Of a stretch of DNA of 64,000 bases, positions 12,085 to 46,600 are shown in pieces. Location of the stretch: positions 6,911 through 70,910 of the forward strand of contig MPNW01000077.1 of NCBI GenBank assembly GCA_011800805.1, given 5' to 3'. The translations under genes were made by a program, and so were the position numbers. The first letter of the stretch is position 1. Each line of letters starts with the position of its first letter. This DNA comes from Hirudo medicinalis. Lineage: Eukaryota > Annelida > Clitellata > Hirudinida > Hirudinidae. The notes under the pieces were generated by a model. The model did no database searches. It was given only the letters and a program-made list of their open reading frames with translations, and was not told the DNA's origin.

Positions 12085-12215
12085 AAAGCGCCATATGCAT
12101 AGCGTCAGAGGTGCTTCAACCATTTATACAGTGCTCCTTCCCAAGGGCGCTTGCGGCAGTGCAGGCTGGGTTTCGAACACGACACATTACGACTGTTGCC
12201 ATTACCGCCATTTAT
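12085..12215 (+). repeat. SINE-like repeat nested in the hAT element
   Basis: The segment begins near AAGCGCCATATGCATAGCGT and ends near CTGTTGCCATTACCGCC. It includes GGCTGGGTTTCGAACACGAC, which resembles a tRNA-type B box, and matches the inverted copy at 59829-59925. It is likely a tRNA-derived SINE body shared between loci. Confidence 0.6.
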
Positions 12216-12570
12216 TCCACTTTTTTGTTTCTATTCTTAGGTTTCGTTTGACTTTCATTTTATGTTTTAGAACAATAACACAACTCACCCGTTGTGGACT
12301 TTTTCTTATTGTAACAAAAATATAAAATAGACATATTATATTGATTTGCATTTGATAGTTCATTCATGGTTTAAGCTTACAGGCTTAAAATTTGTAGAAT
12401 TAATTTTAAATTTATTATTTTTAATTAGAATAAAAATGTTAGAATTTCTTGAAATCTTACGCATGTTATTCAGCTTCAATTTGCACACTGTGTAAATTGG
12501 ATTGCACGTTATAGTTAAGAAAATAACTACCTAAGTACACAATTGTAAAATGGTCACATTGAAAAGTTGT

Positions 12571-12809
12571 GTCAGTAACTGTAACTGTAACTGATAACTG
12601 GAAAGTTGTAACTGAAAACTGGAAAGATAGTGTAAAGTTAACTGTAACTTTAACTGTAACTGGAAAGTACTAACTGTAACTCAAACTCTNGTCAGTAACT
12701 GTAACTGTAACTGATAACTGGAAAGTTGTAACTGAAAACTGGAAAGATAGTGTAAAGTTAACTGTAACTTTAACTGTAACTGGAAAGTACTAACTGTAAC
12801 TCAAACTCT
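12571..12809. repeat. Exact 119-bp duplication around a one-base N gap
   Basis: Positions 12571-12689 and 12691-12809 are identical and separated by one N. This is a second case of apparently unmerged overlapping contig ends, so the TAACTG-rich end of the transposon is probably over-represented. Confidence 0.85.
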
Positions 12810-13602
12810 AACTGAAATAACACTGATCTGCAGCGGAGATATTTTTTAAAAGGAGTAAATATGTTTTGGGATCGACGTTGATCCTATTTTTGATCGTAAG
12901 ATATTTAGGACAGTGCCCTAACAATAAGTAGTATAAATTTTAAAAAATATCCCTTTGGTAAAGTATCTTATTGACTACAAGATATACTTGATTGTTTAGA
13001 TTTAGTTTAGATATTTTTTTGCTTGGACTTGTACCACTATCAAAGGGGCAAAATGGAATAAGCTTGGTCTGGCAAAATGAAGCGCTACCTTATGTTGCCC
13101 AGTTAAGTTATTGCGAGCATAATTTGTGTTATTTCTGATAAAATAATGTTCTGACAATATACTTTTATAGATTTGTATAGTTACCACTTTTAAATTAATA
13201 ATGGATTGGATGAAGCAGATGAATAGCCTACCTTTTATTGTTTGTGAAATTTGTATGGACTGAGACATTTATTTGTTTTTAATTTGTTAATTTAATGAAA
13301 AATTATTAATTTAATTTAGTTGCACATTGGATTAATGTTTTGTAATGTTTGCCACTTAAAAACGTTTGCTTTAAGAAATTTAGGACGTTTTTTAAACCAT
13401 AAAGTTATTTGAATTAAATTTTTATAATTTTTATCAAGTCATTTTGGTCTTCATATGACAAAGTGTTGCTTTCATGCAAATTTGTAATCGTTGTAAATGA
13501 AATTGTGAGTGTAGTAACGGATCTCCCTTAAGTATCCCGTTATACCCAACGTTCTCCTAGATAACGTATGCCTGTGCGCGAGCTGTTCGTAGGATTAATA
13601 AG

Positions 13603-28165: not shown

Positions 28166-37150
<8,985 letters not shown>

Positions 37151-37661
37151 CTTTTTTAAATCTTTTATTTCGAATATGTGAATGTTTGAGTTTGAAGAAA
37201 TTATGATTTAAAATATTATGAGTGGTAAGTTCTCTAGAGCTCCCGAAAGAATGTTTCCCCATTTTTCTTAATTTATTAAGCGAGTTTTAAATGTAAATAA
37301 CAACCTGACTTGACAGCTAATAAATGAATATGCCGTCCATAATAATTTTAGCAATTGTTTTGCAGTTCATTGTGAGTATTGATAATCACAAGCCTAGAAA
37401 CTGCTCAAAAACATTATGCCAAATATGATGATTGCCAAATATTTTGGCTGGGAAATCTTTTGAATTGATCTTATTGTTGACTTGAAGGAAATGACACGAG
37501 AGAAAAACATAACATAATAGAATACAATACAAAATAAAAAATAGAAAAAAAACTTTGTTGCATGTAACGGTGTTGCATACAAACGAAAGTAATTCCGTTA
37601 ATAAATTCAGTAGCGCTGCTAGTAGTAGCAGATGAAAGATAAACAAACTCGTCGACATCTT
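37151..37661. other. Intergenic between two converging genes
   Basis: Three-prime flanks of CASPR (+) and the DEG/ENaC channel (-). AT-rich, with AATAAA-like signals on both strands (AATAAATG near 37319). No gene or repeat is supported. Confidence 0.6.
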
Positions 37662-40600
37662 TCAACGTCTTCTAAGCCGACAACAACCGAGCGAAATTTG
37701 TCCAGCAATCAGTACAACAACAAAGTCAATGAACTCAAACAAAGTGAGGACGCTGGCCCCAAGTAGCAGCCCCAGGAGTCCCCCAATTTCGCTGAGGAGG
37801 GTCAACATTTGGAAGCTGACCTGCTGCTGGATGTGCTCGTAACTCAACTCCTTGTAAAATATCTCCACCTTTATGAAGTTTTCCCTGCAAAGATGGTACT
37901 ATCATTACAACTTTTCTGATAATCACTTCGTAATGGAATAAGCTAGTAAGCAATTCATGTAATCGTCGCAACATCAATTTAAAAAGCACCTGACGAAGTC
38001 CTCGTCCAACTTCCCAAGCTCCGAATAAGCTCTGAGATCGGCCTTCAACTCCAAATGGATGGAGTCGAAAGACTGGATGACATTAATCAGACGACCTTGA
38101 ACTTGTCTCATGACCTTGACATACTTCCCGTAGAAGACGTCGATGATGCCGATGATGGCTGAACGTTTTTCTGATTTCAAGACAGACAACCAATGATTGA
38201 CTTCATTGTACTCATCATCCGATGACACGTTTCTGGCAACATGGATGAGTTGTAACTGTTCTATGATATAATCACTGAGAGGTGGCAGAGCCAATTGGAA
38301 GGCGTAAGAATAAGCTTTGGCCACATTGCTATGTACGTCTGATATCTTGATTAGCAGCTGTTGGACATCTGACAAATAGGACTGCAACTGGAGTTGCTTG
38401 ACTGTCTCGGAGGTCATGACTTCTTCTGAGTGGAAGAGCTGGCAGAGATCCTTTTTAGTAGTGTTGCCATCTGACAGGAAAAAATCCTTAAGAGCATCTG
38501 AGGTGAGAGCGAAAGAATCATTCAAGATTTTTTTCACTTCTCCTGCTTGTCGGAGAAGAGAGTTTTCCAGGGATATCTGTCCTAAGAACGCCTGGTTGGC
38601 GTTGTTCATGTAGTTGAGGAAAGAGTTATAATCCTTGTTGAACCATATCGGTTTCATAAAAAATTGGCACGCGTCGAATCTTGATTGTACCACAGCATTA
38701 TCCGGCACTTTGTTGAGATTGTAGAAGCTCTCAAAATTTCTTGATATTTCGAGTTTTATTTTCCAACTGTTTGTTGTTAAGTACCTGCGGATTTGAATGT
38801 TCACTAGGTCTTCCAATTGAGGCAACCAGAAGGAGACTGTATCGTTGATGATTTTCAGGCATTCCAGATAGGTATCGTTGGAATGGTATTCGAAATCCGT
38901 GCCATGGAAGAGGTGGCAAAGAGTTTCCTCGTATTTTTCCTTCATCTCCCCAAGAACCAACAAAGATTCATTGGCAATGGACTCCCATTTTACGAGGATG
39001 TTTTTCCTGAAGAAAAGATACGTTCTGATAGACTCGTCTTCATCATCGCAGTCTTCAGGCAAAATTGGGGACCCGCCAGAGACTCTCTCGGCCTCGGCGC
39101 ATGATTCCAATATAGCAAGAAGTCCACTGAAAGTACCCTGGATGTCCAGGAAGGCGTTTATGCCTCTATATTCGTCCCAAACCATGGTCTGCCAGATGCT
39201 TACATCAGGTTGAAGTTTTGAGGCTAATGGCACTTTATCGTGAAAGCTCTTATTGGTCAGCACGAAGTCATTCGAGAGGGCACTATAGTTTTTCAGGTAT
39301 TCTGTCAACACCTGCTGATCGGTTTTTAAGTTGTCATCTCCGTGCTTGACAATCAAATGACTCTGAGTGACATTTTCCTGCAACTGATGAAAATTGTAAA
39401 AATATCTCTCCATCAGATGCTTGTTCCTCTCCATACTTGCTTGGTCGACCTTCTCAAATGTAGCCCTTGCCCTTTCGTAGCTGGATCGAAGTGGCAGCAC
39501 GGATTAAATATGGTAAATGATTTAGGATAATGCTACTATAATTACATGCCAACCATTTGGTTTTAATGAAACAATGTTAGACGTCGTCAAACCAACGACA
39601 ACGACATTGGAACTGCTCTTCTCACCTGTGAAGGACATGGTGGTAATCCACGTCCAGATCCACAAAGTCGACCCCAGACATGCGGGCATAAGAGAGCAGA
39701 GGGTCGTAAGTCTTCATCTTACAAGGATTCGGACATTCGCAAAGAGACTGCACGTTCCTATTCGATAGATCTTCAGGGATATTAACATAAATTAGCACAA
39801 ATTATTAAATTTGTTCCATGATAGTGAGATGATGACGAGGAATTATGAGAAGTCTTACCGCTGTTTTCCCTCACGCATAGGAAGGATTCCTTGAGAGAAC
39901 AAAGTTCTGCAGCAAAAAAATACAAAGATATTTTAATATTATAATACTGAGAATACTCAGTCATGACAGGACAATTTTCAGTTATTATAATTATTATTGT
40001 AGTACTTAAATTATATTATTAATTATTATTATTTCAAATTATTATTTATTACATTGAGCGCAAAGACTTCAACATCACAACATGACCAACGGTCTTTATA
40101 TTTCGATGGGGGTTTCATGTGTGGATCCCTGCAGCCACACCTCTCAACCACTTCATTTGACGTGCAGACGGCCAAACATTGTGATCTTGCAACTTCTCCA
40201 GAATGGCAAGTCCCATAGGGGGCCTGGAGATTTTCCAGGCACTGCCTCTTCACCCCGACCAAGACGTGCATGCCCGGAGAAACTGCAAAACCGAGGTCTC
40301 TCACCTGGGGGAACTCACGTGGGTCATGGAGAAGGATCTGTTTGTTGATGGTCGACGATGTTTTAAAGGAAAAGAAGTTATAATCATCTAGCTATAATAG
40401 TATCGTAAATATTGGGCAAGTGATAATCACAGTAATTATGGCTATTGTTATTAAAGTGGATATGCTTACTTTAATACCGGTCTCTTGGTCGGGACCAGCC
40501 ATGTACTCGTACTGCTCAACATTTAAGATGACTCCAAGAGCTGAACGAGAACCTGCGACATATATCGTCAGCATAATTTATTTACAAATTTGATGTGATA

Positions 40601-42485
40601 GACGATGTCCACATACCTGTATATAAATATTCAAATGAGCGTCTTAAGTAGTTAAACGGTGTACGATTTGCATATTAATAAGTCTTCTGAATGCAATTAC
40701 CTCGCAGCGTTAAACAACCCAAGTTGAATTCACCAACCTGCTTTTACAACTCGCAGTCTGTCATCGACGTCTCCGTTGAAAGTGTAGCAGAGACCAAAGT
40801 CGGTCATCCTCTGGGTGAAGTTTGCACTTCCGTTACACGGATGACCCTGCCAGGTGCATCTGGAAGTGATTAATAAAATTAAATAATGCAAAAATTTCGT
40901 ATAATTTTAGGCAACATAACATTTTTGAATATATTTAGAAGCAATGAAAATATAAATCTACGTATGATTGAATGTCATTTGTTGCTGTAACTTTTAACCA
41001 CGATCACCTCCATTCGGTTAATAATGTTAAACACATTCAATCATTCAACTGACCTGACAATGAAATCGTTCTGTTGATGTGACGTGTTGAGAATAAATTC
41101 TGTCATGTTCATGTCGAAGTCATCTCCTGCTATGTCATCAAAATAAAGCTCGAAACCGGGTCGATAGGCTTGGCTGATGAAGTCATACATATTCATGTCG
41201 ACCACTGCGGTCAATCTGGTAATAATGAATAGAAAAGTAAGCCTTGATTAATCCATAGCTTGCATTTTTGATAGCAAGTTTGAAGATGAGGATTTGACGT
41301 CGACGTCACCGAAGTCACCCTCACCTGTGCTTGTTATAATTGCAGATGGTGACAGCTGGAAATTCTATATTCCTCGTATAAACGACCTTCAGATTGACAT
41401 TGGATGGGTACTGGAGGTAAGTCACGAGTCTGTCCATGGCCTGGTAGACGAAGATCCCGACGCATGAGACGATGCAAACCAGCCAAATGATCCTACGCGA
41501 TCATCATAACAGGGATTACAAAGATATTTTTGAACAAGAGTAAGTAATGCAAATAAATAAATTATAAGGAAAAATGGTTTCTATGAGGGTTGAGCACTAT
41601 GAAACATTCAAATTTCATCATCACACCTCCTCAGTCTCACAGGACCGTCATCAAAAGCGTATTTTATTCCATGGAGAGTCGTCCTAGATATGAAGTTTTT
41701 CCATCTTTCCACGATGCAGGATGATTCATTTTCAAGTTTCTGTTCGTTTGAAGGAGTGGCACTTTCGGATAACCCTTCATCGCGTGGTTGGTCTTGGACT
41801 GAAAGGAAAATGGTATCTTCAGTTATTGAACTCAAGCGAACGTTTATCACATCTCTGATGGTGCAATTACTCCAGAATTCGATATTAAATGTTGACCCTT
41901 GAATAACCTTAACCCTAATCCTGGATATATTGACGATGAGATGATAAACTATTATCCGATGACTCACCGTATTTACCATCGTAGGATTCTTCGTGTTCGC
42001 CCAGATAATCTTTCGCCAAAAAGTTTGAAATTGCAAATGGGTATTGCCTAGGTTTCGTGGAGGGGGTATCATGCCGGACGAAATGCTTTACCTCAAAACC
42101 CTTTACACCGTCCTTCATGTCAAAAAGATCAAACTGATCTTGATTAAAAGAGCTTGTGGGTACGTGACTCGGTTCACCAGAACGTTTTGGAGTCAGATGG
42201 TGCGACTTGTGCTGTCGTTCGAAATATTCATATTTGAACATGTCACAATCTATGAGTATTCCACTGTCCCTGTGACTAGGAACATAGCAAAACCCATCGT
42301 CTGACGAAGTTCGAAACGTCTTGAAACTTTTGAAACTGCTTGCATTAGATTTGGTCCTGCTGAGACATCTGCTACCATTTGAGGCAATCCCTACGAAGTA
42401 AGTAAAATATAAATAATGTACGAGAGAGGTCAGCCTGATTTGCATTACCCCGATCGTGGTCGCTAATATCTTCGTAGTCATCCAT
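37662..42485 (-). CDS. DEG/ENaC/ASIC-family sodium channel with a giant extracellular insertion
   Basis: Twelve exons in continuous phase encode 1,106 aa: 42449-42485, 41968-42390, 41627-41798, 41325-41492, 41054-41215, 40738-40859, 40470-40552, 40091-40337, 39859-39906, 39626-39770, 37990-39480, 37662-37884. Family members are usually 500-700 aa, trimeric, amiloride-sensitive sodium channels gated by protons, peptides or force. Seen: a ~205-aa cytosolic N-terminus with the gating motif His196-Gly197, TM1 (about 212-229), PAVTICNYN after it, the finger and palm region with FGLCYTFNG, GFAVSPGMHV, the Cys-rich ERCGCRDPHM and CECPNPCK, then a single 1,491-nt exon (residues about 536-1032), then the pre-TM2 block FIKVEIFYKELSYE and TM2 with the GAS filter at 1075-1077. 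The exon insert has nine N-glycosylation sequons, consistent with an extracellular location. The donor at 40090 (GTTGGT) is the least certain junction. Confidence 0.92.
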
Positions 42486-43655
42486 TGTATGGGCTATGCT
42501 TAAACCCAGCAATTATATTGGCACCTAACCAAAAAAGGAGCCTCTCTTTCCTGAGATACCTATTTTTATAACGATATCATACCCAGCACCACGTCGCCAT
42601 TTCATTTCACGAGAGCCATTCATTAGTACATGAGTATCCTCCAGCCTTATTTATGGATGGAATTTCCACAAATGCACACGCAATCCGGCAGATGTAAACA
42701 TCTCATAAACTCATATCTGACTAAAACGTTCTCATCCTTGGGATATTGAAAATGCTAACTCATAACTCATTCTCCCGCTCAGGCCTTTGAAGCTTAGCAG
42801 ACTTCCACCACCCCGCCTCTAATCATTATTGTGACGCTTTTTAGTACTAAAACGGTCACCAAATCTACGTGCTTAATATGCGTTGTTAAATATCCAAGGA
42901 CGAGATTAAATATTTTCCACGGTTCCCAGGAGATTTTGGCAACGGCGCCGAAGAACTACCCCGAAGCACACCGGACTCCACAAGTACCGTGAGAAGAGAC
43001 AGATGCCAGACCAACATTCGAGAGGGCGGGGAGGGGGTTTCATGTGGACATCAGAGCAGATTAGAGATTAGCTTCGATTCGAGTCGGACAAATGAATGTA
43101 AGATAACATGAAATAAAGAACGAGTTGCAATCAACTTTTAGTAAGCAACATGTTTAACTATAATAATATTATTATTATCACTATTATTATTATTAGTAGT
43201 AGTATTAATTATACATTAATGATTAGAAGAAACTAGAAGATTTAATGAGACGCTGGAGCAAAGTTAATACCACTCAGGAGTATCACTTCATTATTCTTCC
43301 TTCTATTTCTTGTGAACCACCAGCTACAAACAAGCAGTAAATGGTTTGTCATTCAAAGGAATTTGAACTAAAAAAAAATGAACATTTAAGGTGCAATTGA
43401 AGATTGCTTTATGAACTGCAGAATTATCATTAATCCAAGAATTAATAGACAATAAGAAATGCTAAGTAAGTCTAACATATCATTAACATAAGGCATTAAG
43501 TGCATTCCTATGTGAAATGACTCAACACATTTTTAAATTGAATTCATATGAAATCCATGGCCTCAGAACATCATCGTTAGTGATGAAACAAGTAATTAAT
43601 ATTAATAATCAAGTAATTAATGTTAATATTTTTAATGTTAATAATCCGATCAACG
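42486..43655. other. Intergenic, no gene seen
   Basis: This holds the 5' flank of the DEG/ENaC gene and the 3' flank of the SH2 gene. A GC-richer patch at 42940-43040 with a G-run (GGGCGGGGAGGGGG) may be promoter-related. (ATT)n tracts lie near 43160. No open frame of interest. Confidence 0.55.
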
Positions 43656-46600
43656 TTAAATATAGGTAACTTCACCATAGGATAGCTTGGTGCTGATGGC
43701 TCGATGATCCTTGGGCGACTGCCTGCTTGTCTAATCTGTTAACATAAGTCAATGTCATTGTTGATTATTATTATCATTATTATTATTATTTTATTATTAT
43801 TACTGTAATTATTATTTTTATTATTGGAAGTTTAAGGGAAAAATGTCGTTTCAAATTCAATGCAAGCCCATCTGAAGAGTAATCTAAGAAATGTATGATG
43901 TTGAGAAAATATAATAAACTAATTTTCCTACAATGCGATGGTAGCAACTCCAATAGTTGTGCAACACTCACTTCCTGGATGTCTTTGTTGGTGAGCAGGA
44001 GATCGCTGTAGTCGCACTCACCATCATTCTGACAAAAGAAATTTAGATCATTAATATTATTATTTTATGTCAACAAAATGAAGGGTCATGAATGACCACT
44101 AACTTAAATTTGTAATGATATAGGCTGTAGATAGATATGGAGCGATGCAGACGAGTAAGAATTGAAATCATTTCATCTTAGGACGTTTGTTGGTTGATCA
44201 TTGGTTGAGAGGCAAGATACTATATCGAGTTAGGGCTGTGGTGCTGATGATTTTGGGGCAGAGAATTCCAGGGTTTGATTTGATTGTCAAAGAAATGTAG
44301 CCTATGAGTGTGGAGCACTTTTCTTGGCATAGACAGGGAAGGACCACCTTTGTTCAAGATGATATGAAACCAGGGATGTCTGGAGTGGTGAGGACTGTGA
44401 AATATTTTGTAGCAGAGGCATAAATCATGGACGATGCATTAATGTTCAAGAGTCCGAGTTGCTGAAGTCTGCTTCTGTAAGGCATTGTTCTCAATCCTGA
44501 GATGGTTCTTGTGAAATATTTTTGAATGCATTTGATCTTGGTGTTCGATCTTGATCTTGATCTTTATAAGCTGCCTGTTATGAGGGCTCCAGACTGGGGA
44601 GCAATGTTTGAGGATTGGGCAGACTTGGGTGTAATATGATCTGGTCAGAATTTTTGTCTCTTGAGTGAAAGCATTTGAAGGATTAGACTTATTCTGAAAG
44701 GCTTTGTGAATGATGTTGTTGACATGGGCTTTAAAAGTGAGTTCACTGTCAATGAGGACACCAAGGTCACAGATATGGTCTGTGGAGGATATAGTATGAG
44801 GAAAGTATGGGGAAAATATTAATATATCTTCATGGTTGGATGTGATTGGACATAAATGGTGAGGTCGCCATGGCAGTCGGTGAGAATCATGTCCAAATGC
44901 AATCTAAGGCATAATCCTAACCAACAGTTGTGAATTTTATGACATGCTGCAAGGTGCATCAAATGTTGTGTTGAATAAGCTTACAATTCATGCAACAACA
45001 ATGTCACATCGCAACCACATGACACGTTAGGAGAACGTCAATCTTAATCCAATTGTTTCCTGGCAACCTACCTGCATGCAAGGTGTTGTGAGGTAGCCAT
45101 TCCAGTTGCTGATTTTATGCTGGATTAATAAAGCATTACTTTTATTTCATTTTTTTTTCATTTTATTGCGTTTTATTCAGGGAAGAGTAAATACTCGAAT
45201 GAATGAATAAACTTAAAGTAGCAGGTAAATTTAGTTTCATCTGGAGTAAGTTGACAAACGATTAACATCACATTAATTGATTTTCATATGAGATGTGAGA
45301 AGCTAACAAAATCAAATTGATTATGCCGATCGTAACAAATCAAATTGATTATTATGCCGATCGTAACAAATCAAATTGATTATTATGCCGATCGTAACAA
45401 GTCAAATTGATTATTATGCCGATCGTAACAAGTCAAATTGATTATTATGCCAATCGTAACAAATCAAATTGATTATTATGCCAATCGTAACAAAATCAAA
45501 TTGATTATGCCGATCGTAACAAGTCAAATTGATTATTATGCCAATCACAACAAATCAAATTGATTATTATGCCGATCGTAACAAATCAAATTGATTATTA
45601 TGCCAATCGTAACAAGTCAATATCCCGATCGCCGAACGTCCTATTTGCATCCGAGCACTCACTTTCTTGTAAAACTCCACCAGAGCCAAAAGAGACGCAA
45701 AGTCGACCTTCTCTCCTACGATCCTGAAGTTCCCCCCTGAAATTTCGTCGATCATGTAGTGACGGCACTTCTTTGCGTCCTTGAACGAGAGAGAAAATCC
45801 GAGCCTGGACTCTGCCACTCTGATGAGAAAGAAGCCCTTCGGTTTGTCCCGCAGGAGTATTTCTGCACTTCTGACGAGCGACGACGATTTATTTAGCTTC
45901 GAGCGGAGGTCGGTGTTTGTGATTTATACTAATTAATTCCCTAAGGCCTAAGACCTGCCTAACCTATCTCAACCTAATTTAAGAAATATTTCAATCAATC
46001 AAAATGATATTTTTAGACGTGGTAGTACTTATAAACGTCGTTACTATCATTTAACCACCTTCTAGAAATTATGCCGTGGAACCAGTCTGCATAGAAACCA
46101 TTTTCCTGCAGAAGTTGTTTGGCTTGCGTCGTTTTAAACCACTTGACAGACGCTGTTCTTGCTCCAACTTCTCCATAGTTCTTCCCTTTCAAGATGTTGG
46201 ACCAAGTCTCAAAGTCGTTTTCTGAATCAGAATCTTCCTTTTGCAGATGCAGTCTGAGAGGTGTCACATATTGCAAGGGAGCAGATGGTTCCTTCAGATT
46301 GGTGGCAAAGAAATGATGTTGATTATTATGAAATTCGAATAAATTGAATTGTTTGCCATGCATCATTTCTTTGTAATGAAAATAACAAAATGTGAGAGAC
46401 ATTTTGTGCAAGTCCACGCCAATTCTCACAAACTCACAGGTGAGTCGAGCAGTGGATAAAGCCTGGACGACTTTGTACTTTTCTTAAGGCTCGTCATAGT
46501 GATTGGTTTTCCAGTCTGGCTTTTGACTACTGAACTTCCAATGGAAGGGTTCTTTGAACCGTGGGATGATTCGTCCCTCGAAACTTTATCATTGACCGGT

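Follow-up and report, generated by a model that had tools for sequence, protein, structure and literature searches.

Channels of the DEG/ENaC family are trimeric, amiloride-sensitive cation channels and have an HG motif, a cysteine motif in the thumb and a GxS filter ahead of the second transmembrane segment (TM2), all with recognised roles in these proteins. In ENaC, strand beta10 leads into the extracellular knuckle, and passages of PMC9052164 report that knuckle changes alter sodium self-inhibition. Excerpts of PMC11026163 describe an FMRFamide pocket framed by the finger and the neighbouring subunit's alpha6 helix, with this corner put forward as a site for matrix tethering. Here, we describe a leech gene in which the knuckle is greatly enlarged. 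It lies in the window, a 64,000-nucleotide stretch of Hirudo medicinalis DNA (contig MPNW01000077.1, positions 6,911 to 70,910), and its product is, by its sequence, a DEG/ENaC subunit, i.e., a sodium channel of the touch/acid-sensor type. The explanation that we favour, at a probability of roughly 0.4 for the whole, is that this subunit belongs to a spiralian branch whose members bear a helical knuckle module acting as an anchoring and levering spike. We are highly confident of the structural part of this account, i.e., a genuine exon, an insertion at the same site and of similar length in relatives, carriers on one branch, a helical fold as modelled in a clam relative and enrichment in glycosylation sequons.

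The gene runs from 42485 to 37662 on the minus strand, with 12 exons and an open frame of 1,113 residues; all 11 introns start with GT and end with AG, and the interval 37600-42600 holds zero unknown bases (N). Pfam family PF00858 (ASC) matches the protein in two stretches (expectation [E] value 2.6e-86), and the HG motif (LHGIKY), the thumb motif CECPNPC and the GAS filter (GASVLT) all lie within the open model. ASIC structures align at residues ~187-524 and then again at ~1021-1109. An earlier sequence-only reading of this DNA had named a DEG/ENaC channel with these three landmarks and had placed an insertion between the thumb and the pre-TM2 block, and both calls are upheld, ASIC sequences aligning on either side of the insertion. 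Third-position GC content is close in the insert (0.546) and in exons 1-10 (0.511). A start of exon 9 at 39906 was rejected, as it breaks the frame; 39889 keeps the frame open. The parts of the gene are as follows, TM1 being the first transmembrane segment.

42449..42485, minus strand: exon 1, putative start codon and cytosolic N terminus (open model, GT donor)
41968..42390, minus strand: exon 2, cytosolic N-terminal region (open model; the covering open reading frame has no Pfam match)
41627..41798, minus strand: exon 3, HG motif (TTLHGIKY; open model, Pfam, ASIC alignment)
41325..41492, minus strand: exon 4, TM1 and start of the ectodomain (FPAVTICN; open model, ASIC alignment)
41054..41215, minus strand: exon 5, finger region (open model, Pfam)
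40738..40859, minus strand: exon 6, ectodomain (flanking introns match those of the paralog on contig C1370 in place and phase)
40470..40552, minus strand: exon 7, palm block NVEQYEYM (open model, ASIC alignment, paralog comparison)
40053..40337, minus strand: exon 8, palm and cysteine-rich/thumb region (open model, ASIC alignment)
39859..39889, minus strand: exon 9, short thumb exon of 31 nucleotides (frame-keeping acceptor)
39626..39770, minus strand: exon 10, thumb end CECPNPC and thumb-to-knuckle strand (SYARMS; open model, ASIC alignment)
37990..39480, minus strand: exon 11, 1,491 nucleotides, phase 2-2, knuckle insertion followed at the 3' end by the ordinary knuckle helix
37992..38048, minus strand: segment of exon 11 giving the canonical knuckle helix, residues ~1021-1039 (phmmer alignment to ASIC1)
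37662..37884, minus strand: exon 12, pre-TM2 palm strand, TM2 with the GAS filter, and stop (open model, ASIC alignment)

The insertion in exon 11 is real and is not an assembly join. As the sequence-only reading had stated, with exact coordinates, it lies in a single in-frame exon of exactly 1,491 nucleotides, which is open, flanked by CAG and GTGC, and in phase 2 at both ends. This exon codes for residues 543-1039; the earlier numbering of 536-1032 picked out the right exon and is superseded by the 12-exon model. An alignment to ASIC1 382-471 (phmmer) starts at residue 1021, so that the final ~19 residues of exon 11 match the usual knuckle helix; the earlier figure of ~497 residues holds for the exon, and the true insertion is nearer 480. 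It sits between the thumb-side strand (beta10) and the knuckle helix (alpha6), with 530 residues separating the thumb cysteine from the NF of the pre-TM2 strand. Skipping of exon 11 would keep the frame but delete the knuckle helix and would therefore remove a standard part of the channel. An assembly join, which the sequence-only reading had itself named as a possible undoing, is ruled out because a homologous insert occupies this site in a second gene of the genome. Two short blocks, LCHLFHG and LCQLFHS, had been read as hints of an internal duplication, but this finds no support: the best self-alignment of the insert scores 36 against a shuffle mean of 36.9, and 119 of 200 shuffles score as high.

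The second gene lies on contig C1370 of the genome (133 Mb, 1,557 contigs) and carries 553 inserted residues in seven exons. The two inserts are similar (blastp E 7e-22, 26% over 400 columns) and, once trimmed, match nearly end to end (residues 6-471 versus 10-525, E 1.3e-21). The intron that follows the insert falls at an identical codon and phase in both genes, six introns interrupt the insert in the paralog versus zero in the window gene, and sequence matching the TM1 region is found upstream of the paralog. With the C1370 insert plus TM2 as query, 12 matches at E<=1 were obtained from the whole genome among the best candidates scored. Six of them fall in C1370 itself and two in the window (the insert exon at E 2.2e-12); three hit TM2 regions of other paralogs, and the last is weak (E 0.68). 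Seven single-exon DEG/ENaC paralogs of this genome have 66-75 residues at the insert site, an eighth (L021) is incomplete, so that its 48 residues there are not firm, and the translation of a further paralog on C108 lacks the insert.

The insert had been thought to be without counterpart among DEG/ENaC members; it is in fact present in four spiralian phyla. A profile of the window and paralog proteins retrieved 45 of 4,722 candidates at E<=1 and a second profile search 26 of 5,842 at E<=0.001, giving 69 distinct proteins, of which 68 were aligned after exclusion of P0069. More than 400 residues separate the last thumb cysteine from the pre-TM2 NF in 27 of these 68; the range is 450-562 overall, and 485-562 in complete proteins, to which the fragments P0025 and P0063 do not belong. 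At this site, 37 proteins have 30-64 residues (P0032 and P0041 being doubtful there); intermediate lengths occur in one Mytilus model (323) and two Ptychodera models (219), and a Branchiostoma model with a repeated part has 179. Carriers include the annelids Capitella and Owenia, the brachiopod Lingula, the nemerteans Lineus and Tubulanus, and the molluscs Mytilus, Mercenaria, Mya, Ruditapes, Saccostrea, Ostrea, Liolophura and Octopus. Their database labels are mostly uncharacterized, hypothetical or ASIC-like, and our literature search found no paper describing the insert or the carrier branch. Some individual models deserve mention in their own right. P0026 (Capitella, 1931 residues) combines the knuckle insert with MAM, CUB and sub-threshold kringle matches between TM1 and the palm. 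P0003 (Owenia, 1458 residues) is a carrier with a PF00722 match, which we take to be glycosyl hydrolase 16, besides its channel domain, and may be an annotation fusion of two genes. The 219-residue segment of P0060 and P0061 (Ptychodera flava) is perhaps an independent insertion at the knuckle site; the profile of spiralian inserts detects no similarity in it.

A tree of the channel core was built from 55 rows with the insert columns removed; 23 of the 68 proteins were omitted (near-copies, fragments, and short or divergent rows, eight carriers among them), eight paralogs of the leech genome were added, and no FaNaC row was included. All 21 carriers used (19 database proteins, the window protein and its paralog) fall on one side of a single branch (bootstrap 99, Shimodaira-Hasegawa-like approximate likelihood ratio test 90) that is present in 98% of 200 bootstrap trees. 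When seven rows that are doubtful or have long branches are removed, two carriers among them, the 19 remaining carriers stay together at 96/86, in 94% of bootstrap trees. The window protein, the paralog and Capitella P0001 cluster at 99/88 and 98/99, a grouping that by itself makes an annelid source of the window most likely. Of the rows outside the carriers, Ptychodera P0060 (87/50) and a crinoid (90/86) come nearest, both weakly supported; the carrier branch is in the same half of the tree as lungfish ASIC1, but stands beside the crinoid and Ptychodera via weak forks. The window protein has the knuckle length (485-584 residues) and the core position of the spiralian knuckle-insert branch, two of the features by which we define it. 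Elsewhere in the tree, the single-exon genes L001-L006 and L008 form a cluster in the vicinity of a shark ENaC alpha row and a nematode row, reminiscent of the leech deg/enac expansion reported in PMC7992859, a study in which two of ~65 such genes are reported to be enriched in pressure cells and nociceptive cells.

As far as alignment of the inserts can tell, that of the window is clearly and directly similar to those of its paralog and of Capitella only. The Capitella insert matches that of the window at E 4e-8 in a one-to-one blastp comparison. Against a profile built from 21 further inserts of spiralians it scores E 2.1e-4, where 2000 shuffles reach 0.57 at best; the same profile gives E 0.016 for P0026 and 0.022 for P0052. 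With hhalign, the window insert alone reaches E 0.0022, but over just 35 columns, in register. Taken together, the core tree, this chain of similarity and the agreement in site and approximate length, rather than direct similarity, point to one probable origin of the insert within Spiralia.

The fold of the window insert was taken from a relative, because its own single-sequence model was poor. In the confident AlphaFold model of clam P0006 (predicted local distance difference test [pLDDT] 88), the ASIC fold is kept around an all-helical module with predicted helices of 83 and 62 residues. Over 26 inserts, 226 N-x-S/T sites were counted versus 114 +/- 9.5 in shuffles, with 0 of 1000 shuffles as high; the window insert has the nine sites previously counted versus 4.0 expected, a number reached by 1.2% of 1000 shuffles. 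The sequon excess and the helical fold in the clam relative make it very likely that the insert is, as the sequence-only reading held, extracellular, and probable that it is helical.

We suggest that an ancestor of this spiralian branch gained a helical module of ~450-550 residues at the knuckle, between beta10 and alpha6, with the channel core retained. In a trimer, the outer corner at which a knuckle abuts the neighbouring finger would bear a long N-glycosylated helical spike, three in all. Each spike would serve as an anchor and lever, such that matrix, glycocalyx or a partner cell, by force or by binding, would move alpha6, and this motion, with that of the neighbouring finger and thumb, would bias the gate. 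N-glycans on the palm and knuckle of alphaENaC have likewise been proposed, in sections of PMC9108448, as tethers for shear sensing. The spike geometry within the trimer and its role as a tether are put forward somewhat more tentatively than the account as a whole. More speculative again is the notion that the channels of this spiralian lineage have inherited, on each knuckle, a glycosylated helical spike of perhaps 10 nm (83 residues of helix at 1.5 A each) that would act as a built-in extracellular tether. Among the three functions that had been floated for the insert (ligand binding, tethering and force sensing), we would rank tethering and force sensing first.

Several points weigh against this reading. 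The structure prediction of the window exon alone that had been proposed earlier was run, but reached a single-sequence pLDDT of only 36.5, and the predicted template modelling score of clam P0006 (0.64) leaves the orientation of the modelled spike uncertain. In 6 of the 26 insert rows the sequon count is matched by >=20% of the row's own shuffles, i.e., with no clear excess, and the pooled count of 226 overstates independence, its rows being related. The window insert scores E 1.3 against the 21-insert profile (hmmsearch), within the shuffle range; hhalign gives 0.066 for window plus paralog and 0.14 for the paralog alone, the latter no improvement on reversed controls (0.13-0.44). The 27 carriers among 68 proteins do not amount to a census, since carriers served as seeds of the searches, which were also filtered by length. 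Finally, portions of PMC11026163 describe the knuckle as relatively static during FMRFamide gating, which speaks against a lever.

Other explanations must be set beside the anchored spike. The module may instead bind a soluble ligand (peptide, protein or small molecule) and gate the channel from the finger/knuckle corner like FaNaC, for which the excerpts of PMC11026163 put FMRFamide at the finger corner beside the neighbour's alpha6; the rapid divergence of the insert (database copies share 11-16% identity with that of the window) is also what ligand-facing parts can display. However, some 480 residues with helices as long as those modelled in the clam exceed the needs of a pocket, and no ligand-binding fold appeared in a fold search in which the insert was not searched by itself; we consider this route unlikely. 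Somewhat less likely still is a role in assembly or regulation with no sensing, whereby the module would select partner subunits, shield the ectodomain or keep the channel shut until cleaved. By topology it would lie near the subunit interface, ENaC fingers carry cleavable inhibitory tracts (parts of PMC9052164), and the extra domains of Capitella P0026 indicate that ectodomain elaboration recurs; yet the kept site, the similar length in four phyla and the two-fold sequon excess are more than a spacer would need.

The remaining alternatives concern the history and reality of the insert. Separate origins of the annelid and the mollusc/brachiopod/nemertean inserts at a permissive site would be consistent with the failure of the profile of other inserts to match that of the window, and with the segment at the same place in Ptychodera, in which no similarity was detected. 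Such convergence appears improbable given that all carriers used sit on one branch of the core tree, that the Capitella insert matches the spiralian profile far beyond its shuffles, and that it also matches the window insert directly. That exon 11 is an optional cassette or an annotation or assembly error is scarcely credible: its phases would permit skipping in frame, but the lost part includes the segment aligned with the ordinary knuckle helix, the insert recurs in the paralog and in the database carriers, and the gene is free of unknown bases.

Near the 3' end of the channel gene, the plus strand holds coding exons with an EGF match (34727-37150), including a stretch at ~36960-37010 that is hydrophobic by eye. 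On the minus strand, an open reading frame at 44439-44903 lacks a Pfam match and, by its motif, presumably represents the tail of a reverse transcriptase of a long interspersed nuclear element. Elsewhere in the assembly, L034 (contig C459, 20763-22199) contains bacterial-type open reading frames without stops that we take to be COX1-, COX2- and heme A synthase-like, and C459 is probably a bacterial contig. At L036 (contig C456, ~12202-13068), fragments of COX1 in mitochondrial code, including a repeated stretch, are embedded in other sequence, as would be seen in a nuclear copy or at a faulty join.

In nematode and vertebrate channels, the force-transmitting part is thought to be borrowed from separate matrix proteins or glycans; were the anchored spike correct, this part would belong to the channel polypeptide itself in a spiralian lineage. 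Gating models of DEG/ENaC channels are built on members with small knuckles, so that a large ordered module there would constitute a natural experiment on gate control from the outer corner, and the branch is a testable candidate for the reading of touch, flow or attachment through a channel's own tether. One survey, in the sections of PMC9949801 consulted, saw no ASICs in molluscs; that molluscs have large-ectodomain relatives is worth recording.

Ultimately, the locus is best placed by comparison with known channels. From thumb to NF, lungfish ASIC1 has 36 residues versus the 530 of the window protein, and shark ENaC alpha, on a different tree branch from the carriers, has 39 at the insert site. 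FaNaC (Malacoceros, Aplysia) shares the DEG/ENaC fold and a spiralian provenance and is gated from the finger/knuckle corner, and solved FaNaC structures score below ASICs against the window protein. The likeness to alphaENaC resides in palm and knuckle glycans, which parts of PMC9108448 propose to couple that channel to the matrix. Closest are Lingula LOC106170158, Mercenaria LOC123544907, Capitella CAPTEDRAFT_201141 and Octopus LOC106880211, which have the same build, with 491-562 knuckle residues, and the same core branch; the window insert differs from these in being encoded by one exon and in its divergence, only that of Capitella being clearly similar in sequence. Capitella P0026 likewise has 506 residues at the knuckle site and sits on the same branch, but differs in ~1,000 further residues, with its MAM, CUB and kringle-like matches, between TM1 and the palm.
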